A stretch of DNA of 64,000 nucleotides, from contig CALSTV010000001.1 of NCBI GenBank assembly GCA_943789365.1, positions 3,433,343 through 3,497,342 of the forward strand. Reading direction: 5' to 3'. The translations under genes were made by a program, and so were the position numbers. Positions within the stretch are counted from its first letter, which is position 1, and each line of letters opens with the position of its first letter. Below the pieces are notes generated by a model. That model saw only the letters and a program-made list of their open reading frames with translations. It ran no database searches and was not told the DNA's origin. Origin of the DNA: an uncultured Flavobacteriaceae bacterium. Lineage in GTDB: Bacteria; Bacteroidota; Bacteroidia; Flavobacteriales; Flavobacteriaceae. Below, in pieces: positions 8,616 through 28,718 of the stretch.

Positions 8616-8619
8616 GTTG

Positions 8620-8627
8620 CAAATGTA
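8620..8627 (-). promoter_or_regulatory. Predicted -7 box for pyrE
   Basis: Read on the minus strand this is TACATTTG (consensus TAnnTTTG). Only 4 bp separate it from the pyrE ATG, which places the expected transcription start at or next to the start codon. It overlaps the preferred start codon of the NUDIX gene on the other strand. Confidence 0.5.
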
Positions 8628-9204
8628 TAAAGTTTTTATCAATGACACCCCAATAATTTTATCGGATTCTTCAAAGGGTTTAAATAATTATGAAGTCGTT
8701 AATTTCGAGGAAATTAATAGTGTCGATTGTTGTGAAAGTTATCTGTCTGGTAAAGGAAAACCCTTGTTGTTGTTTTGTTCGGACTTAGAAAGGGATTGGC
8801 AAACATTCTTAAAGAGCTTCCTTGTTTTAGAAGCCGCTGGAGGAAAAGTATGCAATACTAAAGGAGAAGTGCTGTTTATTCATCGTTTCGGGAAATGGGA
8901 TCTGCCAAAAGGACATATTGAAAAAGGAGAATCAAAAGAAGTAGCAGCCATACGAGAAGTAGAAGAGGAATGTGGTATTCGTGGACTTCAAATTAAGGAA
9001 GCATTGGAAACAACCTATCATATTTTTAAATTCAAAAACAGTTTAAGGATGAAAGTCACCTATTGGTTTTTAATGGAAACCTCTTTTAGTGGAGAATTAA
9101 TTCCTCAGGAAGAAGAGGGCATAACCGATGTAGTTTTTAAAAACAAAACCGAGGTAGGAGAGGCTCTTAAAAACACCTACGAAAATATCAGGTTGCTCTT
9201 TTGA
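8623..9204 (+). CDS. NUDIX hydrolase
   Basis: A 193-residue protein with a complete NUDIX box (GX5EX7REVXEECGI, about residues 107-129), which binds divalent metal and hydrolyses nucleoside-diphosphate-linked substrates. About 70 residues precede the NUDIX fold and are typical of a flavobacterial subfamily; the substrate is not known. I chose the ATG giving MYKVFINDTP; the ATG at 8614 in the same frame adds three residues and is also possible. Longer TTG-started versions would run through pyrE and are unlikely. Confidence 0.88.
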   Translation: MYKVFINDTPIILSDSSKGLNNYEVVNFEEINSVDCCESYLSGKGKPLLLFCSDLERDWQTFLKSFLVLEAAGGKVCNTKGEVLFIHRFGKWDLPKGHIEKGESKEVAAIREVEEECGIRGLQIKEALETTYHIFKFKNSLRMKVTYWFLMETSFSGELIPQEEEGITDVVFKNKTEVGEALKNTYENIRLLF

Positions 9205-9209
9205 GTTTT

Positions 9210-9242
9210 GAGCATCTCTGCTTCTGGAGGTTTTTGAGTTTT
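9210..9242 (+). repeat. Dispersed intergenic repeat, copy 1
   Basis: This 33-nt stretch directly after the NUDIX stop matches 11699-11731 at 26 of 33 positions, beginning GAGC and ending TTTTGAGTTTT. Both copies follow the 3' end of a gene. The function is unknown. Confidence 0.55.
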
Positions 9243-9277
9243 CCATAGATTGACTAGTTTGTTATTGACTTCGATTA

Positions 9278-9337
9278 CAATTCAACAATTCAACAATTCA
9301 ACGTTTCAACAATAATTCCTTCAACGCTTCAACAACC
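9278..9337 (+). repeat. TTCAACAA-type degenerate short repeats
   Basis: Seven occurrences of TTCAAC, several followed by AA(T), lie in a 60-bp stretch just upstream of the sulP promoter. The array is irregular. It could be a simple-sequence expansion or a protein-binding region; nothing in the sequence decides this. Confidence 0.6.
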
Positions 9338-9355
9338 TAAATAAACAAAATCCTA

Positions 9356-9385
9356 TTGTTGTTGTCAATAATAGCTGTATTTTTG
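9356..9385 (+). promoter_or_regulatory. Predicted promoter of the sulP operon
   Basis: TTG (9356-9358), a 19-bp spacer, and TATTTTTG (9378-9385) make a full match to the Bacteroidota housekeeping promoter (-33 TTTG/TTG, -7 TAnnTTTG). The sulP ATG follows 25 bp later. Confidence 0.75.
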
Positions 9386-9410
9386 CAACTTATTAAAAAC
9401 AAGGTATACA

Positions 9411-11066: not shown

Positions 11067-11071
11067 TTAAA

Positions 11072-11680
11072 GTGAACAGATATTCTAAGTTATATTATCA
11101 TTACCTAAAACGTACGGGATTATTTCAGTTCTTGGGTGAAAACCTCTTAAAATTAGGAGGTGTTATTGCTATGTTTGTCGGTGCCGTGGTGCTGATGGAG
11201 CAATACCTGATTACACTCAAGGAGATATTTGTCCTTATCGTAGAGAATGTAGATGTATGGGCCGTATTCGTGTTGTTCACAATCTCAGAATCTGTTTTGG
11301 GCTTATTACCTCCCGATTTTTTTATTGTTTGGTCTAAAGAATTGAGCAACCAAATTCAACTCAATGAATGGTTGTTGGTTGGCTTTTTGGCCTTATTGTC
11401 TTATACAGGCGGTATGATTTCTTATGTGATGGGGATGAAAATTATTCATGTGCCTAAAATACACGATTGGGCCCTTGAAAAATATGGTAACTTATTTAAG
11501 AACCTTAAAAAATGGGGTGGTTTTTTCGTGGTAGTTTCTGCGCTATTGCCGGTTCCCTTTTCAATAGTTATGTTGATTTGTGGTATTACAGGTTATCCTA
11601 TTAAATGGGCTGCTTATTTAGGCTTATTTCGCTTTGTGCGCTTTTTTGGCTATGCCATCTTTTTATTTATGCTGGTGTAG
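11072..11680 (+). CDS. VTT/DedA-like membrane protein
   Basis: A 202-residue inner-membrane protein with about five hydrophobic segments. The region SVLGLLPPDFFIVW followed by an SYTGGMISYVMG helix and a KKWGGFFVVVSALLPVPFSIVMLICG segment matches the re-entrant loop pattern of the DedA/VTT (SNARE-associated) family, which includes flippases for lipid carriers. The start is a GTG 5 bp after the sulP stop, with no in-frame ATG before the first helix, so the two genes are probably one operon. Confidence 0.75.
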   Translation: MNRYSKLYYHYLKRTGLFQFLGENLLKLGGVIAMFVGAVVLMEQYLITLKEIFVLIVENVDVWAVFVLFTISESVLGLLPPDFFIVWSKELSNQIQLNEWLLVGFLALLSYTGGMISYVMGMKIIHVPKIHDWALEKYGNLFKNLKKWGGFFVVVSALLPVPFSIVMLICGITGYPIKWAAYLGLFRFVRFFGYAIFLFMLV

Positions 11681-11685
11681 CTTAA

Positions 11686-11739
11686 AGTTTTTAGTGTTGA
11701 GCCTGTCCGCCTCCGGTGGGTTTTGAGTTTTTAGTGTTG
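11686..11739 (+). repeat. Dispersed intergenic repeat, copy 2, inside a 14-bp direct repeat
   Basis: The 14-mer AGTTTTTAGTGTTG occurs at 11686-11699 and 11726-11739. Between them is an unusually GC-rich core (CTGTCCGCCTCCGGTGGG) that aligns with the core at 9210-9242. Related sequence in the opposite direction (AAAACTCAAC, AAAACTCAAAAC) occurs at 11906-11926. The rest of the 250-bp gap to coaD shows no ORF. Confidence 0.6.
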
Positions 11740-11930
11740 CGTTGTCCTTATATTAAGTTTGAGAAATTGAGAACACGAGTACATTAAACAGAGAAATGAA
11801 GTGAGTAGTTCAATTTTCAAGATGAAAATCCTTTCTTCAAAAAGTTCCTTAAAGAAAAACAATTCTCAAAACAAACTATCAACCATGGAATAGGCAAGCT
11901 AAAAACTCAACATTTAAAACTCAAAACTTA

Positions 11931-12383
11931 TTATTGTGTTACTTCTTTAGGCAGTAGAATACTTGCATCTCCGTTGTTTCTTAAAATATCACGAACAATA
12001 CTAGAACTGATAAAGGAGGTTTCAGCACTTGTCAATAAGAATACCGTTTCAATACCAGACAATTTTCGGTTGGTGATAGCAATCGCTTTTTCAAACTCAA
12101 AATCCGCTGGATTTCTCAAACCACGTAAAATAAAGTTAGAATCTATGGTTTTGCAATAATCAACGGTAAGCCCGGAGTAGGTAGTTACCGTTATTTTTGG
12201 TTCCGATTGAAAGGTGTTTTTTATAAACTGCAATCTCTCTTCTAAGGAAAACATATACTTCTTATCGGCATTGATACCAATGGCAATGACAATTTCATCA
12301 AATAAAGGAATTGCTCTATTAATGATGTCGACATGCCCTAAAGTTATAGGATCAAATGAACCGGGGAAAACTGCTTTTCTCAT
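11931..12383 (-). CDS. coaD: Pantetheine-phosphate adenylyltransferase
   Basis: A 150-residue enzyme that transfers AMP to 4'-phosphopantetheine, the penultimate step of coenzyme A synthesis. The nucleotidyltransferase motif GSFDPITLGH (residues 8-17) contains the T/HxGH signature, and the second motif TSFISSSIVR lies near residue 125. The length is slightly below E. coli CoaD (159) and normal for Bacteroidota. It lies 46 bp downstream of the DUF4268 gene, and a -7-like box (12409-12416) lies 25 bp upstream, so it may have its own promoter. Confidence 0.96.
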   Translation of the reverse strand: MRKAVFPGSFDPITLGHVDIINRAIPLFDEIVIAIGINADKKYMFSLEERLQFIKNTFQSEPKITVTTYSGLTVDYCKTIDSNFILRGLRNPADFEFEKAIAITNRKLSGIETVFLLTSAETSFISSSIVRDILRNNGDASILLPKEVTQ

Positions 12384-12429
12384 AAGGTGGTGTTTTGTAA
12401 AACCAATACAAATATACGTTTTCTATTTT

Positions 12430-12879
12430 TTAGGGGTGTTCTGTCAACGCTTGTTTTATGAATTCTTCATATTCGTAAAACCACAATTCAAACTGTGACA
12501 TCGACTCGTTAAAAAACTCATAAGCGGCGCCCCAGGTGTTTTTGTTGTAAATACTGAATTTTGCGTCCAACTGTACATAAATACGTGACAAACATTTTCC
12601 ATTGTCTAAATAATGGTTTTCATCAAAAATCACTTCTGGTAAGTAATCTTCTGTCAACACTGTTTTTAAAGCAGCTACTTGTTCATAAAGTAAGATTCGC
12701 TTTTCTTCACTATAAGGTTCAATATCGAGCAATACTCTTGCTATTTTATTATCGGCATAAAACTTAAAGGAAAAACCTTTGATTTTGGTATTGTACAACA
12801 ACCATTTTCTAGGAAATGACTTCCCGTAACTTGTCCAAAAATCCTTTCGGAACCGTCCTGCTTCTTCTTTTGAAAACAT
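12430..12879 (-). CDS. DUF4268 domain protein
   Basis: A 149-residue cytosolic protein that I recognise as the DUF4268 family of Bacteroidota, from its FRKDFWTSYGKSFPRKW opening and the LWFYEYEEFIKQ C-terminal helix. No enzymatic motif is evident. Some DUF4268 domains are fused to nuclease-like modules elsewhere, but that does not give a role to this short stand-alone form. It is followed by coaD. A possible -7 box (TACATTTG on the minus strand, 12900-12907) lies 20 bp upstream of the ATG. Confidence 0.8.
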   Translation of the reverse strand: MFSKEEAGRFRKDFWTSYGKSFPRKWLLYNTKIKGFSFKFYADNKIARVLLDIEPYSEEKRILLYEQVAALKTVLTEDYLPEVIFDENHYLDNGKCLSRIYVQLDAKFSIYNKNTWGAAYEFFNESMSQFELWFYEYEEFIKQALTEHP

Positions 12880-13071
12880 GTATTTGTTTTAATTGGTTGC
12901 AAATGTAGGAATTTGGATTGAAGTAATAGAGAATTGGAGTAGTGAAGTAGTGAAGGAGTGAATAAGCAAGACCGCACGTTGCCATTGGTTGCGCAGAAGT
13001 TTTCGCATAAACGGACATAGTTTTAGCTCAGGAGCCTTCAGGAAAAAGAAAGAGGAAATCAAAACAGAAGA
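12880..13071. other. Noncoding part of the DUF4268-htpG spacer
   Basis: Short overlapping ORFs here have no family character and are taken as chance. The stretch 12932-12960 is a degenerate AGTAGTGAAG-type repeat. No RNA gene is recognised. The rest of the spacer to 13216 holds the palindromic repeats and the htpG terminator listed separately. Confidence 0.6.
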
Positions 13072-13156
13072 CAATCCATAATGACTCCATAGGAGTCACA
13101 TATCGTAAACGAAAAAAGGAATGCAATTCATAATGACTCCATAGGAGTCACATATC
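13072..13156. repeat. Pair of REP-like palindromic repeats
   Basis: A 33-bp unit is present twice (13072-13104 and 13124-13156) with one mismatch and a 52-bp period. Each unit contains the palindrome TGACTCC-ATA-GGAGTCA (13082-13098 and 13134-13150). Paired small palindromes in a spacer resemble REP/RAYT-type elements, although no RAYT transposase is seen in the window. Confidence 0.8.
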
Positions 13157-13166
13157 CTTAAAGAAA

Positions 13167-13196
13167 AATCCCATCTCTGAAGACAAAGATGGGATT
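13167..13196 (-). terminator. Terminator of htpG
   Basis: A perfect 10-bp inverted repeat (13167-13176 with 13187-13196) with a 10-nt loop, followed on the minus strand by a T-run (AAAAA on plus at 13164-13168). It lies 20 bp beyond the htpG stop. Confidence 0.85.
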
Positions 13197-13216
13197 CTAA
13201 CTATAGTTGCTAGCTA

Positions 13217-15130
13217 TTATTTAATCATAGCATAGCTGCGTTTGATAAAGTTTGTCAACTCTTCACCATGCAATAGATTTTGAGATAATTTTGCCAAATC
13301 AAAGGCCTGACCGATCAATTGTTTTTGGGCAGCCTCGTCTTTGTTGTCCAAAATCTCTTTGATCAAATCGTTGTTGGTGTTCACAACAAGGTTGTACATC
13401 TCTGGCATATTTTCCATACCAAACATACCGCCGCCACCAGATTGGCTCATTTCTTTCATTCTTCGCATAAACTCTGGTACCGTAATACTAAAAGGATTGG
13501 CAGCAGAATCTAAGGCTTCCAACTGTACCGTATAGTTTTCCTTAGGAACATTTGCCTCAATAATAGGTTTTAAGGTTTCCTTTTCTTCATCAGAAAGCTT
13601 AGAGATTTTTGTCTCGTCTTTGTTGATTAAGTTATCGATATGATCAGAATCTACACGTGTAAACTTTAATTTCTCGTTGCTTCCTTCTACTTTTTGCATT
13701 AGGTGAGAAACGATTGGAGAATCTAGCAACAATACCTCATATCCTTTGTCTTTTGCTTCTTGGATATAGCTGTGCTGTGCTTCTTTGTTAGCAGCATACA
13801 GTAAAATCAGATTTCCATCCTTGTCTGTTTGCGCGTCTTTTGTTTTTTCTTTTAACTCATCTATCGTAAAGAACTTTCCGTCTACTGTTGGGAACAAAGA
13901 GAATTTTTTTGCCTTGTCGTAGAACTTGTCATCAGATAACATTCCGTATTCGATAATTACCTTGATATCATTCCATTTCGCCTCGAAATCCTCACGGTTG
14001 TTTTTAAACAATGACGTTAGCTTATCTGCAATTTTCTTGGTAATGTATCCAGAAATCTTTTTTACAGCACCATCGGCTTGTAAATACGAACGTGAAACGT
14101 TCAATGGAATGTCTGGAGAATCGATCACACCTTTTAGCATCTGTAAGAAATCAGGTACAATTCCTTCTACGTTATCGGTGATAAATACTTGGTTTTGGTA
14201 GAGTTGGATTTTGTCCTTTTGGATGTCCATGCTCTTGCTCAACTTAGGGAAGTACAAAATTCCTGTTAAGTTGAAAGGATAATCTACATTTAAGTGAATG
14301 TTAAACAAAGGCTCTTCGAACTGAGATGGGTATAGTTCTCTGTAAAACTCGTTGTAATCTTTTGCTTCTAAATCGGAAGGTTTTTTTGTCCAAGCAGGAT
14401 TTACATTGTTGATGATATTATCAACCGTAATTTGTTTGTGCGGTTCCGTAGTTTCTTTCCCGTCTTTGTCAGTCGTAGTTTGTGGAGTAAACTCAGGATC
14501 GTTGATTTCTTTGGTTCCAAACTTAATTGGAATTTGGTTGAAACGGTTGTATTTATTCAACAGCTCAGTGATTTTAGCATCTTCCAAGAACTCCAAAGAA
14601 TCGTCTGCAATATGTAACACAATTTCAGAACCTCTGGTTTCTTTTTCAATAGGATCTATCGTATAGTTTGGAGAACCGTCACAAGACCATTTAACAGCTT
14701 TTGCATCTTTAAATGATTTGGTTAGAATTTCAACCTTATCAGCCACCATAAAAGCAGAGTAGAACCCAAGCCCAAAATGACCGATGATTCCAGAGTCTTC
14801 TACCTTGTCTTTGTATTTGTCAATAAACTCTTCAGCACCAGAGAATGCAATTTGGTTGATGTATTTTTCAACCTCTTCCTCATTCATTCCAATTCCCTGG
14901 TCGATGATACGCAATGTTTTTGCTTCTTTGTCAGCGATAACTTCAATTTGAGGAGTTCCGTATTCTTCTCCTTCAGCTTCGCCCATTGCAATAAGGTGCT
15001 TCATTTTTGAAGTGGCATCTGTAGCATTTGAAATCAACTCTCTTAAAAAGATCTCATGATCCGAGTACAAGAATTTTTTTATTAAGGGAAAAATATTTTC
15101 CACTGAAACATTGATATTTCCTTTAGCCAT
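13217..15130 (-). CDS. htpG: Molecular chaperone HtpG (Hsp90)
   Basis: A 637-residue cytosolic ATP-dependent chaperone. The N-terminal GHKL ATPase shows the ELISNATDA helix (about residues 32-40), DQGIGM (about 77-82) and GHFGLGFYSAFMVADKV (about 116-132). The middle domain contains the PLNVSRSYLQ segment that carries the catalytic Arg. The C-terminal dimerisation domain ends without an MEEVD tail, as expected in bacteria. No sigma-32-like or CIRCE element was recognised upstream. It is a single-gene unit with its own terminator. Confidence 0.97.
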   Translation of the reverse strand: MAKGNINVSVENIFPLIKKFLYSDHEIFLRELISNATDATSKMKHLIAMGEAEGEEYGTPQIEVIADKEAKTLRIIDQGIGMNEEEVEKYINQIAFSGAEEFIDKYKDKVEDSGIIGHFGLGFYSAFMVADKVEILTKSFKDAKAVKWSCDGSPNYTIDPIEKETRGSEIVLHIADDSLEFLEDAKITELLNKYNRFNQIPIKFGTKEINDPEFTPQTTTDKDGKETTEPHKQITVDNIINNVNPAWTKKPSDLEAKDYNEFYRELYPSQFEEPLFNIHLNVDYPFNLTGILYFPKLSKSMDIQKDKIQLYQNQVFITDNVEGIVPDFLQMLKGVIDSPDIPLNVSRSYLQADGAVKKISGYITKKIADKLTSLFKNNREDFEAKWNDIKVIIEYGMLSDDKFYDKAKKFSLFPTVDGKFFTIDELKEKTKDAQTDKDGNLILLYAANKEAQHSYIQEAKDKGYEVLLLDSPIVSHLMQKVEGSNEKLKFTRVDSDHIDNLINKDETKISKLSDEEKETLKPIIEANVPKENYTVQLEALDSAANPFSITVPEFMRRMKEMSQSGGGGMFGMENMPEMYNLVVNTNNDLIKEILDNKDEAAQKQLIGQAFDLAKLSQNLLHGEELTNFIKRSYAMIK

Positions 15131-15300
15131 AATAATAAGTATTTATAAATTTTATGTTGTTTACTATTTGTTGCTTTTCAATAGACAAATAAAATACCAA
15201 ACTAGATTTACTGCCGACTAGACAGGTGGAAGTGACAAGTTGGCGGTTTTGTATTGCAAAATAGGCGTTTGATTGTTTGCTTTTTAGTGCTGGGGGAACA

Positions 15301-15324
15301 CCCTATAAATAGGGAGGGGGGGGG
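15301..15324. repeat. Small palindrome followed by a nine-G tract
   Basis: CCCTATAAATAGGG (15301-15314) is a 6-bp inverted repeat. It is followed, after one A, by nine consecutive G (15316-15324), which is unusual in this AT-rich genome. It lies 90 bp before the ATG of the broken DUF6973-like gene and inside the 284-bp spacer after htpG, which otherwise shows nothing coding. Confidence 0.7.
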
Positions 15325-15414
15325 TTCATTACAAATAAGGGGTGAGTTTTAGAATACAATGAATTACTTTTATAAACTAAAATGCTATTGTTTAATTAAA
15401 TAAATTAAAAAACT

Positions 15415-16691
15415 ATGTAAAAGAGTCGATTAAAAGAAATTTGTGTACTGCTAAGTTTGCTGTTTGTATTTCAACATTGTGAGGATAAAACAGAGTTTGA
15501 GGTTCAAATTACAAATAAAAACACCTTTAAAGGATTGCCGGTACAACATCGGTTTAACGTACCACTGGAGGCACTTGAAAAGTTAGAAGCTTCAAATGTG
15601 ACACAGGGAAACTATGTTGAGAGTTTAATTTCAACTGCTGGTAAAAAAACAGGAATGAAGAAAAAGCAACGTCCTAGTTTAAAAACCATAGACAAATTTA
15701 CACGTAAGCACCTACATAAATTTCCTTATAATATTGAGAAAAACAACAGTGCGAAAAATTGGAAAATGATACAAAAAGATTTTCCGGACTTAACAGACGA
15801 GGAAATTATTGCCAATATGGAAACTATTGAAACCTATTATTCATTAAATTTAGATCATATCGTCTTTGAGGACATTGCCAACAACCCGGAAGAAACTGCT
15901 GAAACCGCTCAAAAAACTAATTATGAAATTTGTGATTATATGAATACCAGAGATTGTGTACAGACCAAATTATTGATAGACGGAAATTTAGATGTAGTAT
16001 ATCTTGGAAAAGCGGCTTATGCAATACTTGAAATGGAGGCTGAGATTGATGATGAGGCTGTTTATAAAGAATATGAGATGACATCTAATGACACAAGGCA
16101 GGACGCCTACCGTCATATTATCATGAATGCCTTATTGGGGCAAGGCATTACCCCACCATTTCTTCCAAAGCACCCCGTATGGACTTTGCTAAAAAGATAG
16201 CCGATTGGCACGAAGACTGTGGTTGTAATGAAGTAGATGGAAAAGAAATGGATTACCACAACAATGCGATTGGTCGTCAATTGTTTGCCGACAATACAAC
16301 CTATGAGACTTTTTTAGGCGCTACTATTGGTTTGAATTTACCCTATTCAGGAACGCTAAAAGACAAAACCTTTGAACTTGTTGAAACGGAAAGTTGTTTT
16401 ATTAAAAAGAAAATAAATGAGAATGACGACAATGATTCTGGATTTTCGAAAGAAGAAGCTGTGGCTGAAATTTTTAAAATTTCAGATCAAAAGCCCGTAT
16501 ACATAAAAACGCCTATAGCTTTACCAACCTATATTTATGTTTTTTCGCATTATGACTATTCACTATGTTACGAAGACGGACATGTAGAGCCTATGCGACG
16601 AAGTATCAAAGATCCGGACAATTTGATCTATTGTAGGGAACGCATTGAAAAGAGAGAGGAGATTCCAGCTTGTATGGTAGAAAAATTTTAA
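15415..16691 (+). pseudogene. DUF6973-like lipoprotein gene, broken by a codon-2 stop and a frameshift
   Basis: The ATG at 15415 is followed immediately by TAA, and the same frame then continues as KSRLKEICVLLSLLFVFQHC, a good lipoprotein signal if codon 2 is read as Lys (AAA). The frame runs to a TAG at 16198-16200. The other half continues in another frame from about 16155, where the sense text FAKKIADWHE and MDYHNNAIGRQL completes the domain begun by QDAYRHIIMNALL. This H..HE..MD.HNN pattern resembles DUF6973, whose activity is unknown to me. Restoring codon 2 and shifting frame near the CCCC at 16151-16154 or the one just before 16179 would give about 425 residues. Use of the TTG at 15457 as a start would lack a signal peptide. 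Confidence 0.8.
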
Positions 16692-16701
16692 TTTTGGTGA
16701 T

Positions 16702-17220
16702 ATGAAATACTGTTTGTTTATATTTTTAAGTCTTACGTTGGTTGCTTGTAATCTATTCTCATTTGATAATACTGCTGGAGAAAATGAACCTGGTGTTTGG
16801 ATTGGAGTATTTAATAGCACAAACGAAAGTTATGAAAATGCAATATTGCAGATAGGCGTAATGCAAGACGATGAATTTGTAAAAACTGAGTCTTTAGTTT
16901 TTCCAACTATCCCAAAGGGAAATACAGACTATTCAGAAAGAACCTGTTATGAGACTTATTGTTTATCTCGTTTTACCGTTAGAAGTGGAGGCGTATTATT
17001 ATCTATGAAGGGTGAATATACTTGGAAGCCAAAAAATGAACCTATCCGTCTATTGTCAGATACCTATTATTTTTTATTTAAAATGCCAGATGGTAGAGAG
17101 CTTCTCATTAAGGGATATGAAATGCCAGAGAATGATGAAATTAGAGTGATAACACATATATATAGAGAGAATGACGGAATTACTTCATGGACTGGTATTC
17201 AAGATAAGTATATTGATTGA
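16702..17220 (+). CDS. Small lipoprotein, tandem copy 1
   Basis: A 172-residue protein with a lipoprotein signal (hydrophobic residues 5-14, lipidated Cys16 in LVACN). The mature part is probably beta-rich and contains NEPGVWIGVFNSTNESYENA, an ERTCYETYC segment with two Cys that could form a disulphide, and an acidic tail. I do not recognise the family. It starts 10 bp after the DUF6973-like gene and is paralogous to the gene at 17399. An accessory or partner role to the DUF6973-like lipoprotein is inference from adjacency and joint duplication only. Confidence 0.75.
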   Translation: MKYCLFIFLSLTLVACNLFSFDNTAGENEPGVWIGVFNSTNESYENAILQIGVMQDDEFVKTESLVFPTIPKGNTDYSERTCYETYCLSRFTVRSGGVLLSMKGEYTWKPKNEPIRLLSDTYYFLFKMPDGRELLIKGYEMPENDEIRVITHIYRENDGITSWTGIQDKYID

Positions 17221-17244
17221 ATTGCTTTTCTGCCATGCTGTAAA

Positions 17245-17388
17245 TATTATGACTATTCCCAATGTTATGAAGACGGACATGTAGAGCCTATGCGACGAAG
17301 TATCAAAGATCCGGACAATTTGATCTATTGTAGGGAACGCATTGAAAAGAGAGTGGAGATTTCGGCTTGTATAGTTGAAAAACCTTAA
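17245..17388 (+). pseudogene. Duplicated 3' fragment of the DUF6973-like gene
   Basis: An open 47-codon stretch ending in TAA encodes nearly the same residues as the C-terminus of the gene ending at 16691 (YEDGHVEPMRRSIKDPDNLI is shared). No start or upstream domain is present. It is the leading edge of the second copy of the 697-bp duplication and is presumably not functional. Confidence 0.85.
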
Positions 17389-17398
17389 TTTTAGTGAT

Positions 17399-17908
17399 AT
17401 GAGATACTGTCTATTTTTTTTAGGAAGTTTATTGCTAGTGGCTTGTGATTTTTCAGGTGTAGCTGTTGGTTATAACGAGCCTGGAGTTTCTATTGGAATA
17501 TTTAACAGCACTAATGAAAGCTATGAAAATGCAATTTTACGGATAGGGGTTATGGTAGATGAAGAGTTTGTTGAAACGGAGTCGTTGGTAATACCAACAA
17601 TTCCAAAAAGTTCTGCAAAGTTTTCAGAAAGGACCTGTTATGATTCCTATTGTCTTTTGAATTTTAAGCAAAGAGGGGGCGGTGTATTGTTATCAATGAT
17701 AGAAGAAGACAATTGGAATCCCGATTCAGTACCAATAAATTCTTTGTCGAATAAATATTATTTTTTATTTCAACTGGAAGATGGGGCATCTGAATTGATT
17801 GAGGGGTATGAAATTCCGGATAGTGGTGAAATTAGAGTAGAAATACAAATTAATATTGAGTCAGAAGGACTTAGTAGTTGGAAAGCTTTTGTCAATGAGT
17901 ATGATTAA
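17399..17908 (+). CDS. Small lipoprotein, tandem copy 2
   Basis: A 169-residue paralogue of the protein at 16702-17220 with the same lipoprotein signal (Cys16 in LVACD), the NEPGVSIGIFNSTNESYENA block and the ERTCYDSYC cysteine pair. The ATG at 17399 is at exactly the same offset as its twin; a longer TTG-started reading would include duplicated tail sequence of the upstream gene and is rejected. The C-terminal half has diverged more than the N-terminal half. Function unknown. Confidence 0.75.
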   Translation: MRYCLFFLGSLLLVACDFSGVAVGYNEPGVSIGIFNSTNESYENAILRIGVMVDEEFVETESLVIPTIPKSSAKFSERTCYDSYCLLNFKQRGGGVLLSMIEEDNWNPDSVPINSLSNKYYFLFQLEDGASELIEGYEIPDSGEIRVEIQINIESEGLSSWKAFVNEYD

Positions 17909-17988
17909 AGAAAAAGATAATAAAGAAGAGATATGTTTTGTTCTGTTATAAGATGAAATGGAAACAACGTTATTCTTAATTTTTAGAT

Positions 17989-18105
17989 ATGAAGCATAAT
18001 TTGTTTTTAATAGTAAGTTTACTTTTGGGGAGGGCTTATTACAGAGGAAAATACTATTTTAAGATTGAGAATTCCTGTCTGAAAAATTATTTTATTTTTT
18101 TTTAA
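17989..18105 (+). pseudogene. Decayed third lipoprotein copy (signal-peptide remnant)
   Basis: A 38-codon ORF starts with MKHNLFLIVSLLLG, which resembles the signal peptides of the two lipoproteins upstream and is preceded by a similar TTAATTTT..GATATGA context. It loses the lipobox and conserved blocks after about residue 14 and soon stops. The distance from the copy-2 start is 590 bp rather than 697, so deletions are likely. The spacer 17909-17988 shows nothing else convincing. Confidence 0.5.
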
Positions 18106-18113
18106 AAATGCGC

Positions 18114-18143
18114 TTGCAGTACACAAAAGGTTTTGTATATTTG
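18114..18143 (+). promoter_or_regulatory. Predicted promoter of rpmH
   Basis: TTG (18114-18116), a 19-bp spacer, and TATATTTG (18136-18143) match the Bacteroidota consensus fully. The rpmH start codon lies 70 bp downstream. Confidence 0.75.
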
Positions 18144-18213
18144 CCACGCTTTTAGTGGATGGTATATGCCGAAGCTATGAATATTAAAAAACAAGATTTT
18201 AAAAATATAAGTA

Positions 18214-18375
18214 ATGCCGAAAAGAACATTCCAACCATCAAAGAGAAAAAGAAGAAACAAACACGGTTTTAGAGAAAGAATGGCTTCAGCTAATGGACGT
18301 AAAGTCTTAGCTAGAAGAAGAGCTAAAGGAAGAAAGAGACTATCTGTTTCATCTGCACCAAGACCTAAAAAATAA
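18214..18375 (+). CDS. rpmH: 50S ribosomal protein L34
   Basis: A 53-residue, very basic protein that starts [20 protein letters not shown] and continues with the family motif [20 protein letters not shown]34 sits in the large ribosomal subunit. It is slightly longer than the typical 44-46 residues, owing to a C-terminal Ser/Pro/Lys extension that is common in Bacteroidota. It has its own promoter upstream and a hairpin terminator directly downstream, so it is transcribed alone. Confidence 0.97.
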
Positions 18376-18397
18376 TGAATAGTTTATTCATATAAAT

Positions 18398-18432
18398 AAG
18401 GTGTTACTATTTGTTAGTAACACCTTTTTTTT
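18398..18432 (+). terminator. Terminator of rpmH
   Basis: A 12-bp inverted repeat (18398-18409 with 18415-18426) and a 5-nt loop, merging into a run of T. It begins 23 bp after the rpmH stop. Confidence 0.9.
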
Positions 18433-18500
18433 GAGTATTTTTAACAACTGTAAAATAAAAGACTGCGATAAAAGTCTTTAACTATAATAAATTTCCCAGC

Positions 18501-21356
18501 ATGCCAAAGAACACAAACATCAAATCAGTATTAATTATAGGATCAGGTCCTATTGTTATTGGACAAGCTTGTGAGTTTGATTACTCAGGTTCGCAATCGA
18601 TCCGCTCTTTAAAAGAAGAAGGAATTGAAGTGACATTGATCAACTCCAATCCGGCAACCATTATGACGGATCCTTCTCTTGCAGACAATGTGTACTTAAA
18701 ACCATTGACGACCAAATCTATTATCGAAATTCTTAAAAATCATCCAAATATCGATGCTGTTTTGCCAACAATGGGAGGGCAAACTGCTTTGAATCTATGT
18801 ATTGAAGCTGATGAAAAAGGAATCTGGAAAGATTTTAATGTAGATATGATTGGGGTAGATATCGATGCCATCAATATTACTGAAGACAGAGAGCAATTCC
18901 GTGAGTTGATGGGGAAAATTGGGGTAGCCATGGCACCTCAAGCCACTGCAACTTCATTTTTAGAAGGAAAAAGGATCGCACAGGAATTTGGATTTCCGCT
19001 TTGTATTCGTTCTTCATTTACTTTAGGTGGCGCTGGAGCAGCTATCGTATATGAAGAAGAAGACTTTGATGATTTGTTGCGTAGAGGATTGGAAATATCA
19101 CCAATTCACGAAGTGATGATCGACAAAGCAATGATGGGATGGAAAGAATACGAATTAGAACTATTGCGCGATAAAAACGACAATGTTGTGATTGTATGTT
19201 CTATAGAGAATATGGACCCAATGGGAATTCATACCGGAGATTCGATTACCGTTGCACCGGCAATGACATTGAGTGATTCTACCTTCCAAAAAATGCGTGA
19301 TATGGCCATTCATATGATGCGTTCTATCGGTGATTTTGAAGGTGGTTGTAATGTACAGTTCGCTGTTTCGCCTGATGAAAGAGAAGAAATTATTGCCATT
19401 GAAATAAACCCACGTGTATCGCGTTCTTCGGCTTTGGCGTCGAAAGCAACTGGATACCCTATTGCAAAAGTAGCAACCAAATTGGCTTTGGGATACAATT
19501 TAGATGAATTGAACAACCAGATTACTGGAACAACTTCTGCTTTGTTTGAGCCTACCTTGGATTACGTAATCGTTAAAATCCCTCGTTGGAATTTCGATAA
19601 GTTTGAAGGTTCTGACAGAACTTTAGGCCTCCAAATGAAGGCCGTAGGAGAGGTGATGGGAATTGGACGCTCGTTCCAAGAAGCATTGCACAAAGCAACA
19701 CAGTCTCTTGAAATCAAAAGAAATGGTTTAGGAGCCGACGGAAAAGAAGAAACACATTACGATACCATCATATCTAAATTGACAAACGCCTCTTGGGATC
19801 GTGTATTTAGTATTTATGATGCGATCAAAGCTGGAATTTCTCTTAAGAAAATCTACGATATCACAAAGATCGATATGTGGTACCTAAAGCAATACGAAGA
19901 GTTATTTGCTTTGGAGAAAGAAATTTCTACCTTCAAACTAGATACCTTGTCGAAAGACTTGTTGCTCGAAGCAAAGCAAAAAGGATATGGTGACAGACAG
20001 ATAGCACATATGTTGGGCTGTTTAGAATCTGAAGTGTATAAAAAACGTGAAGAACTAGGAATTAACCGTGTCTATAAATTGGTAGATACTTGTGCGGCAG
20101 AGTTTGAAGCACAAACACCATATTTCTATTCTACTTTTGAGAATACAATGACCGTTGCAGACGGTGCGCCATACGCACACAATGAATCTGTCGTAACTGA
20201 TAAGAAGAAAGTAGTGGTATTAGGTTCTGGACCGAATAGAATTGGTCAGGGAATTGAGTTCGATTATTGTTGTGTACATGGGGTTTTGGCCGCTAAAGAA
20301 GCAGGTTACGAAACCATCATGATTAACTGTAATCCTGAAACGGTTTCGACCGATTTTGATACTGCAGACAAACTCTATTTTGAGCCTGTATTCTGGGAAC
20401 ATATTTACGACATCATCAAGCATGAAAAGCCGGAAGGAGTAATTGTTCAATTAGGAGGTCAAACGGCATTAAAACTAGCTGAAAAGTTAGAAAAGAACGG
20501 TGTTAAAATTATTGGTACTTCTTTTGAAGCACTAGATTTGGCAGAAGACAGAGGACGTTTCTCTGACATGTTAACTTCCTTAGAAATCCCTTTCCCTAAA
20601 TTTGGTACAGCAACCAATGCAGATGAGGCACTAGAAATTGCAGATAATTTAGATTTCCCAATCTTGGTACGTCCATCGTATGTATTAGGTGGTCAAGGAA
20701 TGAAGATTGTAATCAACAAAGAAGAATTGGAATCGCATGTAGTAGGTTTGTTACGCTCTATTCCTGGAAATAAATTGTTATTAGATCACTACTTAGAAGG
20801 AGCAATTGAAGCGGAAGCAGATGCTATTTGTGATGAAGATGGTAATGTTTACATCATTGGTATCATGGAGCATATTGAACCATGTGGGGTGCATTCAGGA
20901 GATTCAAACGCAACCTTGCCACCATTTAATTTAGGTGAGTTTGTAATGAATCAAATCAAAGAACATACTAAGAAAATTGCCGTAGCCTTGAAAACAAAAG
21001 GTTTGATCAATATTCAGTTTGCAGTCAAAGACGATACCGTGTTTATCATTGAAGCAAATCCAAGAGCGTCTCGTACAGTACCGTTTATAGCGAAAGCTTA
21101 TGGAGAACCGTATGTAAACTACGCAACAAAAGTAATGTTAGGAGATAAAAAAGTATCTGATTTCGATTTCAAACCTGAATTAGAAGGGTATGCCATAAAA
21201 CAACCTGTATTCTCATTCAATAAATTCCCGAATGTAGATAAGACATTAGGTCCTGAAATGAAATCTACAGGAGAGAGTATCTTGTTTATTGATGATTTAA
21301 AAGACGATGCTTTCTACGAGTTGTACTCAAGAAGAAAGATGTACTTGAATAAATAA
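18501..21356 (+). CDS. carB: Carbamoyl-phosphate synthase large subunit, lacking the allosteric domain
   Basis: A 951-residue enzyme that makes carbamoyl phosphate for arginine and pyrimidine synthesis. Two homologous halves are visible, each opening with a GSGP nucleotide-binding segment (about residues 13-16 and 573-576) and containing an ATP-grasp fold (SFTLGGAGAA and SYVLGGQGMK loops; EINPRVSRSSALASKATG and EANPRASRTVPFIAK motifs). E. coli CarB is 1073 residues and ends in a ~140-residue MGS-type domain that senses UMP, IMP and ornithine; this protein ends about where that domain would begin. I believe short CarB is usual in flavobacteria. carA is not adjacent. A strong hairpin follows the stop. 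Confidence 0.97.
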   Translation: MPKNTNIKSVLIIGSGPIVIGQACEFDYSGSQSIRSLKEEGIEVTLINSNPATIMTDPSLADNVYLKPLTTKSIIEILKNHPNIDAVLPTMGGQTALNLCIEADEKGIWKDFNVDMIGVDIDAINITEDREQFRELMGKIGVAMAPQATATSFLEGKRIAQEFGFPLCIRSSFTLGGAGAAIVYEEEDFDDLLRRGLEISPIHEVMIDKAMMGWKEYELELLRDKNDNVVIVCSIENMDPMGIHTGDSITVAPAMTLSDSTFQKMRDMAIHMMRSIGDFEGGCNVQFAVSPDEREEIIAIEINPRVSRSSALASKATGYPIAKVATKLALGYNLDELNNQITGTTSALFEPTLDYVIVKIPRWNFDKFEGSDRTLGLQMKAVGEVMGIGRSFQEALHKATQSLEIKRNGLGADGKEETHYDTIISKLTNASWDRVFSIYDAIKAGISLKKIYDITKIDMWYLKQYEELFALEKEISTFKLDTLSKDLLLEAKQKGYGDRQIAHMLGCLESEVYKKREELGINRVYKLVDTCAAEFEAQTPYFYSTFENTMTVADGAPYAHNESVVTDKKKVVVLGSGPNRIGQGIEFDYCCVHGVLAAKEAGYETIMINCNPETVSTDFDTADKLYFEPVFWEHIYDIIKHEKPEGVIVQLGGQTALKLAEKLEKNGVKIIGTSFEALDLAEDRGRFSDMLTSLEIPFPKFGTATNADEALEIADNLDFPILVRPSYVLGGQGMKIVINKEELESHVVGLLRSIPGNKLLLDHYLEGAIEAEADAICDEDGNVYIIGIMEHIEPCGVHSGDSNATLPPFNLGEFVMNQIKEHTKKIAVALKTKGLINIQFAVKDDTVFIIEANPRASRTVPFIAKAYGEPYVNYATKVMLGDKKVSDFDFKPELEGYAIKQPVFSFNKFPNVDKTLGPEMKSTGESILFIDDLKDDAFYELYSRRKMYLNK

Positions 21357-23988: not shown

Positions 23989-24783
23989 TTATTGAATTAC
24001 GATAGATTTTAATAGGACACCTTTGCTTGTTTCTATTTGTAACAGATATAGTCCTTTTGTACAATTGGAAACGTCTATGTGTTCTAAGTTTTCCGTTTTT
24101 TCTATGACTGTTTTTCCGTGTAGGTCGATAAGGCTTATTTTTTTTATTTCCAAAGATGTAGCTGTAATGTTTATTATATCAGAGCTTGGATTGGGGCTTA
24201 TGCTAATTAGCATGTCCAGATTAATTTTGTCTGTGCCGTTAATCTGTTCTTTCGAAAAATAAAAGATATGCTCCGGGTTTTCTTCTGACCAAATACGAAA
24301 ACCTTGTCGGTCACCATTTATGGAATAAAATATTTTGTAAGTCGGATTCGGTGTGTAAACATAACCTATGTACCGACCTAGTTGGGTGTCATAGAGATTG
24401 TCGCAATGATTACTTAATAAAGGATTTGAGGACACGTCAAGAATTTCAAAATAGGTGCCATGGTCTGTATAACAAGCGGAGAAGCTATTCTCGGTACACT
24501 AGGAATATGGATTTACTGCAATATACAAACAACTTGTGGATTGGTACGGGGTACAATCTGTAAAGGTATAATTTTGTTCATAATAATCCACGTCACAGGA
24601 CCAGGCATACAGCTTGGCATATATGTAGGGTGGGACAGGGAATTCATCATTTTTATGGGTTTCACCTGAAATCGTCAAAGAGTCGAGTAGAAATTCACCA
24701 TCTTTAAAAAAAGAGATGTTATTGGATTGTCCATAAATGGAGCAATAGAATAGTAAGATAAATAGATAGGTAATTTTTTTCAT
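23989..24783 (-). pseudogene. T9SS sorting-domain protein gene interrupted by an in-frame TAG
   Basis: Reading from the ATG at 24783 gives a signal peptide (MKKITYLFILLFYCSIYGQ) and 94 codons, ending at TAG (24499-24501). The same frame continues without shift as CTENSFSACYTDHGTYFEI to a complete T9SS sorting domain (LISISPNPSSDIINI, CTKGLYLLQI) ending at 23989. Replacing the TAG gives one protein of 264 residues with several Cys before and after the stop. As it stands, the product would be truncated, unanchored and unsorted. A GTG inside the second half (24435) could open a frame but would lack a signal peptide. The intact form would be a small secreted protein of unknown function. Confidence 0.85.
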
Positions 24784-24959
24784 GACGCTTAGTATTTTCA
24801 TTATAATTGTTTTAATTTAACAGCGAAACGGCGCAAGTTAAAAAATATAACAAGGTTATAAAGATAACATATGATTATGTTAAAAGCAATATCTAATATT
24901 GGTGAAATTAAAAACTCCCAAATTATAGGGAGCAATCATATAAGTGTAAGGCATAAAAA

Positions 24960-25005: not shown

Positions 25006-25815
25006 TTATTGTTTAATGAATTCTTGTCGATAGGTTTTTGAATCAACAGTCAACTCGATAACATACATTCCTGTTTGCAATGTAGTTAAAGAAAGAATGG
25101 TGTCCGTTTGTGTCAAAGTTCCAGTAGAAATTTCCTTTCCATTCAGGTCATAGATAGCATACTTTCCAGATGCACTGTTTTGTGGGATGTCTATATACAA
25201 GTCATCAACAACAGGGTTGGGGTACATTTGAAACGGTGTTGATTCTGTAGCAGAAACCCCTAAAATATCAGAAGCTTCGGACTGTGTAGTAACTACCTGG
25301 TCACTTCCATTACCACCGCCATTTCCCGCAACAGCTGCCGCATAAAACTTTATTGGACCTTCATCTGAACTTGGTGAAGTCCAAGAAAATGTCCAATTGG
25401 TACTTGAAAAACCGTCATGTGTTACATGGACACCACCATCGACAAGTTGTGAATTACTTCCCGCACTAAAAGTTCCGATGTCAGTATCATCACTCAAGCG
25501 TTCCGCCACAATTTGAAACCCATGTCTAGAAGCCGTAGAACTAATGTCTACAGTAATGTCGTAGCTAGTGTTTAGTTCATAACCACCTTCCGGAATTGTG
25601 GTGGCAATCGTTAGATTTGCACTATAATCTTGAGGGTTATTCTTATGACATTGTGCACAGGTATTGCCGTTTTCACCTGGAGAACCTGTATTAAATCCGC
25701 TTCTTCCTCCTGAATTTGACACTAAAATAAGTGCAAGTAGAGGAATACTGAAAAGCACGGCTTTAAAAGCAATGTTTTGCAGTTTGTTTTTTTGTCTATT
25801 GTTGAATGAATCCAT
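25006..25815 (-). CDS. Reeler-like secreted protein with one CxxCH motif and T9SS sorting domain
   Basis: A 269-residue protein with an N-terminal hydrophobic export segment (about residues 16-32). It is followed by a SGFNTGSPGENGNTCAQCH segment, in which CAQCH is a canonical c-type haem-binding motif. Residues ~55-170 form a beta-sandwich that resembles the Reeler or 'choice-of-anchor V' domain (YDITVDISS, HGFQIVAE, THDGF, FYAAAVAGNG). The last ~75 residues are a T9SS sorting domain (FQMYPNPVVDDLYIDI, LQTGMYVIEL). The start overlaps the restored end of the upstream cytochrome gene by 20 bp, so it is the last gene of a coupled operon. Predicted location: cell surface. Haem attachment is inferred from the motif only. 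Confidence 0.85.
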   Translation of the reverse strand: MDSFNNRQKNKLQNIAFKAVLFSIPLLALILVSNSGGRSGFNTGSPGENGNTCAQCHKNNPQDYSANLTIATTIPEGGYELNTSYDITVDISSTASRHGFQIVAERLSDDTDIGTFSAGSNSQLVDGGVHVTHDGFSSTNWTFSWTSPSSDEGPIKFYAAAVAGNGGGNGSDQVVTTQSEASDILGVSATESTPFQMYPNPVVDDLYIDIPQNSASGKYAIYDLNGKEISTGTLTQTDTILSLTTLQTGMYVIELTVDSKTYRQEFIKQ

Positions 25816-26438
25816 TGTCTATCCAGTTTTCAATTAAATCAATTTGTGTTTGCGTAAAAGCAGTAGCGTTTTTAGGCATGTTACCACTTTTAATTCTACC
25901 TAAAGCACTTATAAATACCAGTGCTACTGAAAGTCGTTTTTACCAACTGGTATGTAGATAAATCTAAACCGGCCTTAGGACTTTTGCTATCATGACAAGC
26001 GCTAGTGGCACAGCCTTGGCTCATCAAAGGAGCAATATCACTGACATAGGTTGCAGGGACTTCCACAACGCCATCGGAATAATCGCTGTCAATCCAAGCT
26101 TCAATAGCATCCTTGTCGGTTTGTGATAGAGGGGTTCCAACTGGCATTCTGTTCGAAGTAATTTCTTCCCAGGCATGTTCGTTTACAAAAGCATCTTTTA
26201 CCTTGTCGAAAGAAGTCAATTCAATACCGTCAGCTTTGGTAGCGGCATCGTGACACCCAGAAGTAGCACAGCTTTGATTTATTATGGGTTCAATTGTATT
26301 GGTATAATAAGGATCAATATCTTCAATAGGCGTAACTATATCATCTCCATCATCGATATCGTCGTCGTCGTCAGAATCACAGGAATATACCAATAGGAAG
26401 CTAATGAGAAGTAAGGGGATCAATGTAAGTTTTTTCAT
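25796..26438 (-). pseudogene. Cytochrome-like surface lipoprotein with two CX4CH motifs, frameshifted near the 3' end
   Basis: The intact frame begins with a lipoprotein signal (Cys20 in VYSC) followed by DSDDDDDIDDGDD, an acidic run of the kind that directs flavobacterial lipoproteins to the outer surface. Two similar modules follow, each with a haem-like motif, CATSGCH and CATSACH (CX4CH). The frame stops at 25896 after GIYKCFR. The adjacent frame, entered by removing one base near 25905-25910, restores ALGRIKSGNMPKNATAFTQT and a C-terminal IENWIDNGF that matches the end of the paralogue at 26995 (VKSWMENGY). The repaired product would have 213 residues and end 20 bp inside the next gene. 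This is either a real lesion or a one-base sequence error. Confidence 0.85.
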
Positions 26439-26444
26439 ACTATT

Positions 26445-27011
26445 CTATTTGGGGTTAAGGTTAAAGTTTAGCTGAATGTCAATTTCTTTCGCAAGTTTAT
26501 TACTAACTACAGAAGGAATTTCGACATCAAAATCTGACGGTTTGACTTTGAATTGCGCCGAAAGTTTAATACGTTCCTTATTTTGTTGCAGTGTTGCCGG
26601 TGTTTCAATTTTCTGGGAAACACCATGAAAGGTAAGAGTACCTTTTATGATCGTATTTTGCACTTTGTCTGAAGTGTCTTGCGTATAGCCTTCAATCTTT
26701 CCTGAGAATTTTGCCTTTGGAAACTTGTCAGACTCCGCATAATTTTCGTTAAAATGTTCTTCCATCAATGCCACCTTAAATCGAAACCCTTTTACTAAGG
26801 CCAATGCAGCAATATCCGATGTTTCTGTATTGATAATGGCTGTAACCTTGTCATTGGTAGCTTTCACTTCTTCAAATGAAGGTACAGAGGCTTCAAAGGT
26901 AATTGCACCAGATTTGGTTAGGAATTTACCTTGTGAAAAAGCAGTGCCTATTCCTGTCAAAAATAAAAATACTACTAGCCGTAACGTATCGTATTTATTC
27001 TGTGTATCCAT
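26445..27011 (-). CDS. YceI family protein
   Basis: A 188-residue protein with an N-terminal signal sequence (hydrophobic residues 10-26, FSQ cleavage site). The mature part is a YceI-type lipocalin-like barrel: ITFEASVPSFEEVKATNDKV, MEEHFNENYAESDKFPKAKF and the late GTLTFHGVSQ strand. YceI proteins bind isoprenoid or other amphiphilic ligands in the periplasm, and several are near cytochrome genes. It overlaps the upstream cytochrome-like gene by 17 bp and lies 6 bp before the next, so translation is coupled. A quinone or lipid carrier role for the neighbouring haem proteins is plausible but inferred. Confidence 0.93.
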   Translation of the reverse strand: MDTQNKYDTLRLVVFLFLTGIGTAFSQGKFLTKSGAITFEASVPSFEEVKATNDKVTAIINTETSDIAALALVKGFRFKVALMEEHFNENYAESDKFPKAKFSGKIEGYTQDTSDKVQNTIIKGTLTFHGVSQKIETPATLQQNKERIKLSAQFKVKPSDFDVEIPSVVSNKLAKEIDIQLNFNLNPK

Positions 27012-27345
27012 TTTCCATCCAAGATTTTACATTGTTAATAGTAGTGTCCGACAACTTATTACCGCCCAATGGCATACTTCCAGTTTCAATTTCGCTCAAT
27101 GCCGAACCGTTTTCAAAAGCATTTCTTACTTGCGTATAGGTTTCCAAAATATAGCCGCCAGCAGCACTTGAATTGTTATGACATCCACTCGTATTACAAC
27201 TCGCACTCATTAAAGGTGCTATGGTATTGGTGTAGGTAATAGGCGTAGTGGGAAGTTCAACTACATCAGATTCAGAGTCAGAAGCACAGGAAACAAATAG
27301 GGTTCCAGTAAAAACCAACATCACAAATTTTGAAAATATCTTCAT
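26995..27345 (-). CDS. Cytochrome-like lipoprotein with one CX4CH motif
   Basis: A 116-residue lipoprotein (Cys20 in FVSC, followed by ASDSESD, a surface-type acidic sequence). It holds one module: YTNTIAPLMSASCNTSGCH with a CX4CH motif, then a YTQVRNAFENG helix, the MPLGGNKLS loop with a Met that could be an axial haem ligand, and a final KSWMENGY helix. The same order is present in both halves of the downstream gene at 25796-26438, so these are paralogues. It is the first gene of the operon. A -7-type box (TAAATTTG on minus, 27417-27424) lies 71 bp upstream. Confidence 0.8.
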   Translation of the reverse strand: MKIFSKFVMLVFTGTLFVSCASDSESDVVELPTTPITYTNTIAPLMSASCNTSGCHNNSSAAGGYILETYTQVRNAFENGSALSEIETGSMPLGGNKLSDTTINNVKSWMENGYTE

Positions 27346-27463
27346 AAAAAGGAGCTTTCAATCATTTAATAAACTGCAAAACATTATTGTCTATACAGAT
27401 GAAAGATCTAAAAATACAAATTTATTTAAAGGAATCCTTAAGAATTTTTAATACTTTAGTACG

Positions 27464-27847
27464 ATGTGGAAAAAATCAGTATTACTTTTGGTTGTTTTTT
27501 GTGTTATCGTTTTAGGTAGGGCTGTGTACAAATATGTATATCACGAACATGTAAATGTGGAAGAAACCCAAGCCGATTATATGATTTCGGCTAAGGACTT
27601 AGCGGCAGAATTCTCCCAAAATCAAGAAGAAGCATCAAAAAAATATTTAGAAGCTATAGTTACCGTTGTTGGAACTATTTCAGAAATTGACAGTGAAGGG
27701 ATACTATTAAATGACGCTGTGTTTTGTTATTTTACAGAAGTTATTTCCGAACAACAAGCAAAAGAAGTACATATAAAAGGACGTTGCATTGGGTATGACG
27801 AATTGTTAGAAGTAGTTAAAATAGACCAATGCTCGTTTGTAAACTAA
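27464..27847 (+). CDS. OB-fold (tRNA_anti-like) membrane-anchored protein
   Basis: A 127-residue protein with one N-terminal hydrophobic segment (residues 4-20), without a lipobox, probably anchoring it in the inner membrane with the rest in the periplasm. Residues ~40-127 match the small OB-fold family annotated as tRNA_anti-like in Bacteroidota (AEFSQNQEEASKKYLEA, then VTVVGTISEID and VHIKGRCIGYDE). Despite the name there is no reason to expect tRNA binding in the periplasm. It lies 19 bp upstream of the DUF5777 gene and is divergent from the cytochrome operon. Confidence 0.8.
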   Translation: MWKKSVLLLVVFCVIVLGRAVYKYVYHEHVNVEETQADYMISAKDLAAEFSQNQEEASKKYLEAIVTVVGTISEIDSEGILLNDAVFCYFTEVISEQQAKEVHIKGRCIGYDELLEVVKIDQCSFVN

Positions 27848-27866
27848 TCATTTATTTAATCCTACT

Positions 27867-28718
27867 ATGAAAAAATATTCCTTGTTTCTACTCTTGCTAA
27901 TAGCAAGTTTAAGCCTACATGCTCAAAACGATTTATTAGATGAAATTGATGGAGAATTGGAAGTGTCTTCAGAAGTGAGTTCCGTTTTTAAAGGCCTAAA
28001 AATAGTCAATTTAGAATCTACAAAAACTGCGGCAAAAGGTGATTTTTATTTTATCATTTCCCACCGTTTTGGTTCTGTAAAAGGAGGCATAAAAGAGTTG
28101 TTTGGCTTAGACCAATCAAATATACGTTTTAGTTTTTTATACGGTTTTACCGATTGGTTTACGGCAGCCTTGTCGCGTAGTTCTTTTGAAAAAACCTATG
28201 ATGGGACTGCTAAAATTAAATTAGCCACACAAGATAGTGAAGGTTTTCCTGTAAGCATTGCTGCTTTTGGTGCTGTGGCCTACAAAACAGCAGATCCAGA
28301 CATTGCGTATGTTCATTATGAAGACATTCATCGTTTGAATTATCTTGCGGAGTTGTTGATTTCGAGAAAATTCAATGAAAATCTTTCTTTAGAAGTGGCA
28401 CCTATCTTTTTACATGAAAACTTTGTAGTAGAAGACACACAGGATAATTCACAATATGCTGCTGCGTTAGGAGGTCGCTATAAACTAACCAAAAGACTAT
28501 CCTTAAATGTCGATTATGTATATCATTTCAATAGGGCCGAAGCGAGTAGCTTTAACAATCCGCTGTCTATTGGTTTTGATATTGAAACAGGGGGACATGT
28601 TTTTCAAGTGCATTTCTCAAATTCGCAGCAAATGAACGATGCCGGCTTTATCAATGCCAATGGAGATTGGTCTGAAGGAGATATCTTTTTTGGATTCAAT
28701 CTTTCAAGAGTCTTTTAA
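27867..28718 (+). CDS. DUF5777 family outer-membrane beta-barrel protein
   Basis: A 283-residue protein with a cleavable signal peptide (residues 1-19, LHAQ). Alternating hydrophobic strands and a terminal aromatic (LSRVF) are typical of an outer-membrane barrel. The opening ESTKTAAKGDFYFIISHRFG and the later FQVHFSNSQQMNDAGFI block are recognisable as DUF5777. In flavobacteria this family is often encoded beside YceI and cytochrome-like genes, as here (divergent, 521 bp from the cytochrome operon start). It could provide a pore or support for redox proteins at the surface; this is inference. Confidence 0.85.
   Translation: MKKYSLFLLLLIASLSLHAQNDLLDEIDGELEVSSEVSSVFKGLKIVNLESTKTAAKGDFYFIISHRFGSVKGGIKELFGLDQSNIRFSFLYGFTDWFTAALSRSSFEKTYDGTAKIKLATQDSEGFPVSIAAFGAVAYKTADPDIAYVHYEDIHRLNYLAELLISRKFNENLSLEVAPIFLHENFVVEDTQDNSQYAAALGGRYKLTKRLSLNVDYVYHFNRAEASSFNNPLSIGFDIETGGHVFQVHFSNSQQMNDAGFINANGDWSEGDIFFGFNLSRVF

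Follow-up and report, generated by a model that had tools for sequence, protein, structure and literature searches.

A recurrent Bacteroidota gene module that joins a DUF5777 outer-membrane barrel to a YceI lipocalin and a cytochrome c lipoprotein

In a 64,000-nucleotide stretch of DNA from an uncultured Flavobacteriaceae bacterium (assembly GCA_943789365.1, contig CALSTV010000001.1, positions 3,433,343 to 3,497,342; hereafter, the window), six neighbouring genes encode, among others, a DUF5777 outer-membrane β-barrel, a YceI-family protein and cytochrome-like lipoproteins. The original prediction, made from the sequence alone, had placed four minus-strand genes here opposite two plus-strand genes 19 bp apart, and had singled out three CX4CH motifs, a barrel of the DUF5777 family and an OB-fold protein as parts of a surface redox set. 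All six open reading frames (ORFs) are indeed present in this layout, as are the three motifs (CNTSGCH, CATSGCH and CATSACH). The minus-strand series starts with a predicted monohaem class I cytochrome c (26995-27345), a lipoprotein in which the lipid-bearing Cys20 is followed by ASDSESD, and CNTSGCH by a downstream MP. Its gene overlaps by 17 bp that of an exported, lipocalin-like protein (26445-27011) with an EHFNENY motif, which belongs to the YceI family (PF04264, 55.9 bits against a cut-off of 23.7). A second putative cytochrome c lipoprotein with two CX4CH domains (25896-26438) narrowly exceeds the PSCyt1 cut-off (22.5 bits against 22). A frame change near 25,903 ends this ORF early; the remainder of the C-terminal domain, including an MP, lies in another frame (25802-25903, minus strand), where the profile match continues, and its stop overlaps the start of the next gene. 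This may be a real frameshift or an assembly error. By eye, two further ORF pairs of the window (15457-16691 and 23989-24801) each resemble one gene interrupted by a frame change, so the assembly may contain indel errors. The last minus-strand gene (25006-25815) encodes a secreted choice-of-anchor V, or Reeler-like, protein with a CAQCH motif and a type A tail of the type IX secretion system (T9SS; 48.1 bits against 23). Both features had been noted in the original prediction; as to the Reeler-like fold also claimed there, the protein matches choice_anch_V (97.3 bits against 42) and has no match to PF02014 (Reeler). On the plus strand, an OB-fold protein with an N-terminal hydrophobic anchor (27464-27847; tRNA_anti-like, PF12869, 52.2 bits against 23.5) is followed by the DUF5777 protein (27867-28718; 297.9 bits against 23.1).

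The co-occurrence survey that the original prediction had proposed revealed that linkage of DUF5777, YceI and cytochrome genes recurs across three sets of loci: 80 of the window's family, 40 of other families and 80 seeded with YceI. DUF5777 is present in 71 of the 149 genomes sampled from the window's family and in 153 of the 395 sampled across the phylum (Bacteroidota). The 80 family loci, the window's own (L072) included, are regions typically about 15 kb long (range 8.5 to 19.9 kb), fetched for part of the DUF5777 places listed. Searched at E 1e-5 with profiles built up from the window proteins, 70 of these loci contain YceI, 71 the cytochrome and 65 the OB-fold protein. Of the 40 regions from 39 genomes outside the family, searched at E 1e-3, 37 have YceI and 33 the cytochrome; the OB-fold protein, a core component in the window's family and less common outside it, was found in 11. 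The reverse scan, in which named genomes were queried by YceI alone, gave a similar result for the best 80 of at least 595 relatives: 76 loci hold DUF5777, 77 the cytochrome, 76 the OB-fold protein and 74 all four. These loci share species with the family set and are thus not independent of it, and they are biased towards YceI proteins like the window's. At the level of whole genomes, DUF5777 and this type of YceI occur together in 67 of the 149, DUF5777 alone in four, YceI alone in four and neither in 74 (Fisher p 3.5e-32, relatedness ignored). Two of the DUF5777-only genomes have fragmentary matches, and three of the YceI-only genomes have E-values near 1e-17 to 1e-16. Gene order and strand vary while linkage is kept: 89 neighbourhoods show at least 14 arrangements, counting partial and tandem ones. 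The grouping of these genes is far beyond chance, and a recurrent module consisting of a DUF5777 barrel, YceI, a small cytochrome lipoprotein and a membrane-anchored OB-fold protein is well supported. The window encodes another YceI protein (1300-1899, 44.7 bits), which lies away from DUF5777.

The identity of the cytochrome emerges from its family. Among 75 short relatives (under 200 residues), 72 have the motif CX2CH; CX4CH is limited to three, found in the window and a relative of the same genus, and was rejected as a hallmark of the family. The named loci L226 and L235 likewise carry CX4CH, and in the 40-locus set from other families seven proteins combine CX4CH and CX2CH. In an alignment of 73 sequences, the lipid Cys, C50, C55, H56 and the C-terminal W109 are invariant, and M91-P92, with the Met as putative distal ligand, is found in at least 90% and aligns with the MP of cytochrome c6. 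Solved structures retrieved with the family profile include PccH and c6 cytochromes, and 52 of the 73 sequences scanned singly match Cytochrome_CBB3 at E 0.01. A model of the first cytochrome (mean predicted local distance difference test score, pLDDT, 84.6) superimposes over residues 34-116 on Geobacter PccH (4rlr; Z 8.5, root-mean-square deviation 2.1, 78 residues aligned), the sole chain with Z of at least 2 among 18 aligned. As helical proteins go, a Z of 8.5 is modest, and a Foldseek search with this model gave no significant match, so sequence evidence carries most weight here. Taken together, motif, Met-Pro pair, profile and model support the cytochrome identity proposed earlier, in that the CX4CH lipoproteins of the window are members of a class I cytochrome c family, with predicted haem attachment. 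The genome also has two Cytochrom_C_asm matches, which count in favour of a redox role. A second cytochrome-bearing locus of the same genome was judged by eye to resemble the planctomycete-type family and was set aside. In the same genome, L266 has, at 8251-18730, two near-identical starts of a planctomycete-type cytochrome protein, in one case within a 780-residue ORF and in the other within ORFs of 127 and 654 residues, possibly a duplication with one broken copy.

Where might the cytochrome reside? Surface export had been predicted from acidic residues following the lipid Cys. Across the 73 sequences, Ser or Thr occupies +2 in 67%, and an acidic residue occupies +4 in 42%, +6 in 44% and +8 in 89%. 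In PMC5080379, the surface export signal of F. johnsoniae is given as SDDFE at +2 to +6. The polar-then-acidic stretch of the family partly resembles this signal.

The DUF5777 model (mean pLDDT 93) is a 12-stranded barrel, and its closest solved folds are FapF (Z 18.3), KdgM (17.8) and NanC (16.9). Its lumen, with faces assigned by strand hydrophobicity as a rule of thumb rather than read from coordinates, appears polar and slightly cation-rich (K+R 7.4 against D+E 5.3), and R67, K116, Q162, R204, K206 and Q247 are conserved there at 94-100%. Such a barrel does not fit the Mtr-type conduit of porin and surface cytochromes that had been envisaged, and we rejected it: 12 strands make too small a barrel, and each cytochrome domain has one haem site. 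The redox theme of that proposal survives. KdgM and NanC are sugar-acid porins, and their likeness to DUF5777, along with the conserved lumen residues, would fit a redox-coupled uptake or efflux channel, in which the barrel would move the product that outer-membrane redox proteins make from a small compound or metal. This idea also draws on 16 of the 80 family loci (L035, L036, L037, L040, L041, L050, L051, L053, L054, L059, L060, L063, L067, L071, L080 and L087), which encode a FecCD-type permease and its ABC ATPase; 13 of them also have a periplasmic binding protein and nine a TonB-receptor relative. However, rmuC, present in all 16, stands between importer and module, so the arrangement has the look of gene order preserved around the module and may be nothing else, and the cation-rich lumen argues against metal cations. 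On balance we consider a channel of this kind unlikely.

YceI proteins as a family bind ligands of the isoprenoid or quinone-like type. If the ligand here were a peroxidised or radical lipid, the module might act as an envelope antioxidant system, the lipoprotein cytochrome c taking, by analogy, the electron role of cytochrome b561 LcoA beside the lipocalin BcnA of Proteobacteria. According to PMC9113575, BcnA is secreted and linked to LcoA, and mutants show increased lipid peroxidation; a YceI-family (PF04264) lipocalin genetically linked to a cytochrome is a feature shared with the module. Against the analogy, none of the six module proteins of the window matches cytochrome b561, and the polar barrel lumen is unsuited to lipid. 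Furthermore, the lipid-anchored cytochrome c, the outer-membrane barrel and the secreted redox proteins present at some loci have no counterpart in the part of the BcnA-LcoA description consulted. An antioxidant role is unlikely in our estimation. For the lipid-radical system suggested in the original prediction, the evidence speaks neither for nor against.

The module is at times accompanied by secreted proteins. The Reeler-like gene, part of the set as first proposed, turned out to be an accessory: it occurs in 2 of the 80 family loci, the window's own included, with a further clear relative in the named locus L226, and was rejected as a core component. Its relatives in L057 and L226 (a Polaribacter metagenome-assembled genome) lie between the OB-fold and barrel genes, whereas the window's gene closes the minus-strand series. 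T9SS-tailed neighbours no more than three genes away from the module make up a loosely delimited cluster, which is represented in 33 of the 80 family loci and in 3 of the 40 from other families; its 40 proteins include 39 with a T9SS tail, 17 of plastocyanin type and 9 with a DOMON domain. Same-strand OB-barrel neighbours are separated by at least 300 bp in 47 of 131 pairs, which pool overlapping sets. The ORFs read in this slot for 43 of the 47 pairs number 52, of which 43 have a T9SS tail, 21 are of plastocyanin type, eight ankyrin, seven DOMON, two choice_anch_V and one cytochrome c, the remainder being other T9SS-tailed types; one of the 52 matches PF02014. Minority of loci though they are, those with a T9SS protein adjoining the barrel often encode one of redox or haem type. 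Of the matches in 63 of the 71 DUF5777-bearing genomes, 8 of 14 for DOMON and 18 of 67 for cupredoxin are no more than 5 kb from DUF5777, against about 0.05 and 0.27 expected if matches were placed uniformly in 3.7 Mb genomes. A DOMON match occurs in only 12 of these 63 genomes.

At eight loci (L066, L080, L087, L216, L239, L240, L243 and L247), an exported ankyrin-repeat protein adjoins a DOMON-type secreted protein between the OB-fold and barrel genes. By analogy with ankyrin-catalase pairs, the exported ankyrin-repeat proteins may serve to deliver haem here. Their position beside DOMON-type proteins might fit assembly machinery, with the barrel and the OB-fold protein exporting or maturing the cytochrome and secreted haem proteins; FapF, the top structural match of the barrel, is itself an export barrel. 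Its score, however, stands within about 1.5 Z of those of KdgM and NanC, and the cargo already bears T9SS tails. The OB-fold protein offers no help either: at E up to 1 it matched PF12869 alone among Pfam families, no CcmE structure appeared in the profile search, and its candidacy as a CcmE-type haem chaperone is without support. Assembly machinery is thus the least probable of the explanations considered, and we think it very unlikely.

The best reading, in our view, is a conserved outer-membrane redox module of Bacteroidota whose electron partners are secreted proteins that can replace one another. We put it forward tentatively, as possible and slightly short of probable, and favour electron exchange at the outer membrane because it uses most of the parts. 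Besides linkage and cytochrome identity, the clustering of DOMON and cupredoxin matches near DUF5777, the conserved polar lumen of the confident 12-stranded model and a second DUF5777 context described below speak for it. In this scheme the outer membrane would carry the cytochrome, probably on its outward side, and the cytochrome would relay electrons between a periplasmic source (either a soluble cytochrome or a lipid or carrier bound by YceI) and an extracellular compound or secreted redox protein. The barrel would house no cofactors and serve as a small polar channel or docking site. A number of observations weigh against this. No electron route through the membrane can be seen, as the barrel lacks a cofactor site and the cytochrome has one haem. 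The first cytochrome of the window has no Pfam match above cut-off, nor any at E 0.01 when scanned singly, and the most constant acidic residue of its family lies at +8, later than in the published export signal. Among the loci of other families, the OB-fold protein went undetected in 29 of 40 and the cytochrome in 7 of 40. The majority of loci lack secreted redox cargo, 49 of the 67 cupredoxin matches fall outside the 5 kb range, and neither a DOMON nor a cupredoxin match is present in the genome of the window. Finally, no neighbour capable of indicating a substrate occurs generally, and the iron/cofactor-type ABC importer adjoins the module in 16 of the 80 family loci.

Other neighbours vary. 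The 16 importer loci also include an acyl-CoA-thioesterase-like gene in nine cases and carB in ten; across the 80 family loci, carB is found in 25 and an extracytoplasmic function sigma factor in 22. Lipoprotein_15-type repeat proteins adjoin the module in L044, L058 and L076 (Pfam match run for L044), and a Rieske protein adjoins one barrel (L095). Within the window, two similar small lipoproteins without family assignment stand in tandem at 16702-17220 and 17375-17908. DUF5777 also has a second context (L079, L096-L100, L104 and L106), without an adjoining YceI, in which 4Fe-4S proteins, NrfD and a relative of the cytochrome are its companions, joined at several loci by a multihaem or EB_dh-type lipoprotein. 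Read from gene lists, with Pfam run for examples only, this context resembles an extracellular electron-transfer cluster; several of its cytochrome relatives lack the MP.

A bolder idea, which we consider doubtful, is that the small cofactor-free barrel, the periplasmic lipocalin and the surface-anchored cytochrome c form a standard port, while the final redox protein (plastocyanin-like, DOMON or Reeler/CxxCH) is swapped via type IX secretion. If true, this would amount to an exchange of electrons outside the cell with no multihaem conduit involved. No function is assigned to DUF5777, and the open-access literature searched yielded no mention of it. Its link to a YceI lipocalin, a cytochrome c and, in some loci, secreted redox proteins provides a concrete function to test, one that would point to outer-membrane electron exchange in common environmental bacteria.

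Each of the protein families is already known; for the gene set itself, no description was recognised in the open-access literature searched, judged from titles and abstract openings. We place the set among outer-membrane redox modules; the mechanism outlined above is inferred. MtrCAB and the Pcc conduits likewise combine an outer-membrane barrel and a cytochrome within one gene cluster, but theirs is a large barrel with multihaem cytochromes, whereas here a 12-stranded barrel accompanies a monohaem one. In eukaryotes there are Reeler/DOMON/cytochrome b561 proteins, and both Reeler and DOMON recur among the module's secreted neighbours, although as separate T9SS-tailed proteins that are alternatives to each other. 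The KdgM/NanC porins and FapF share the barrel fold and are the best structural matches of DUF5777, yet their identity to it is only 6-15%, and the DUF5777 protein scores 21.1 bits against PF06178 (the KdgM family), below the cut-off of 22. PccH of Geobacter sulfurreducens shares the monohaem class I fold with the module cytochrome, as suggested by profile and model; it is periplasmic according to PMC4717640, whereas the module cytochrome is a lipoprotein and, in the window, carries CX4CH.

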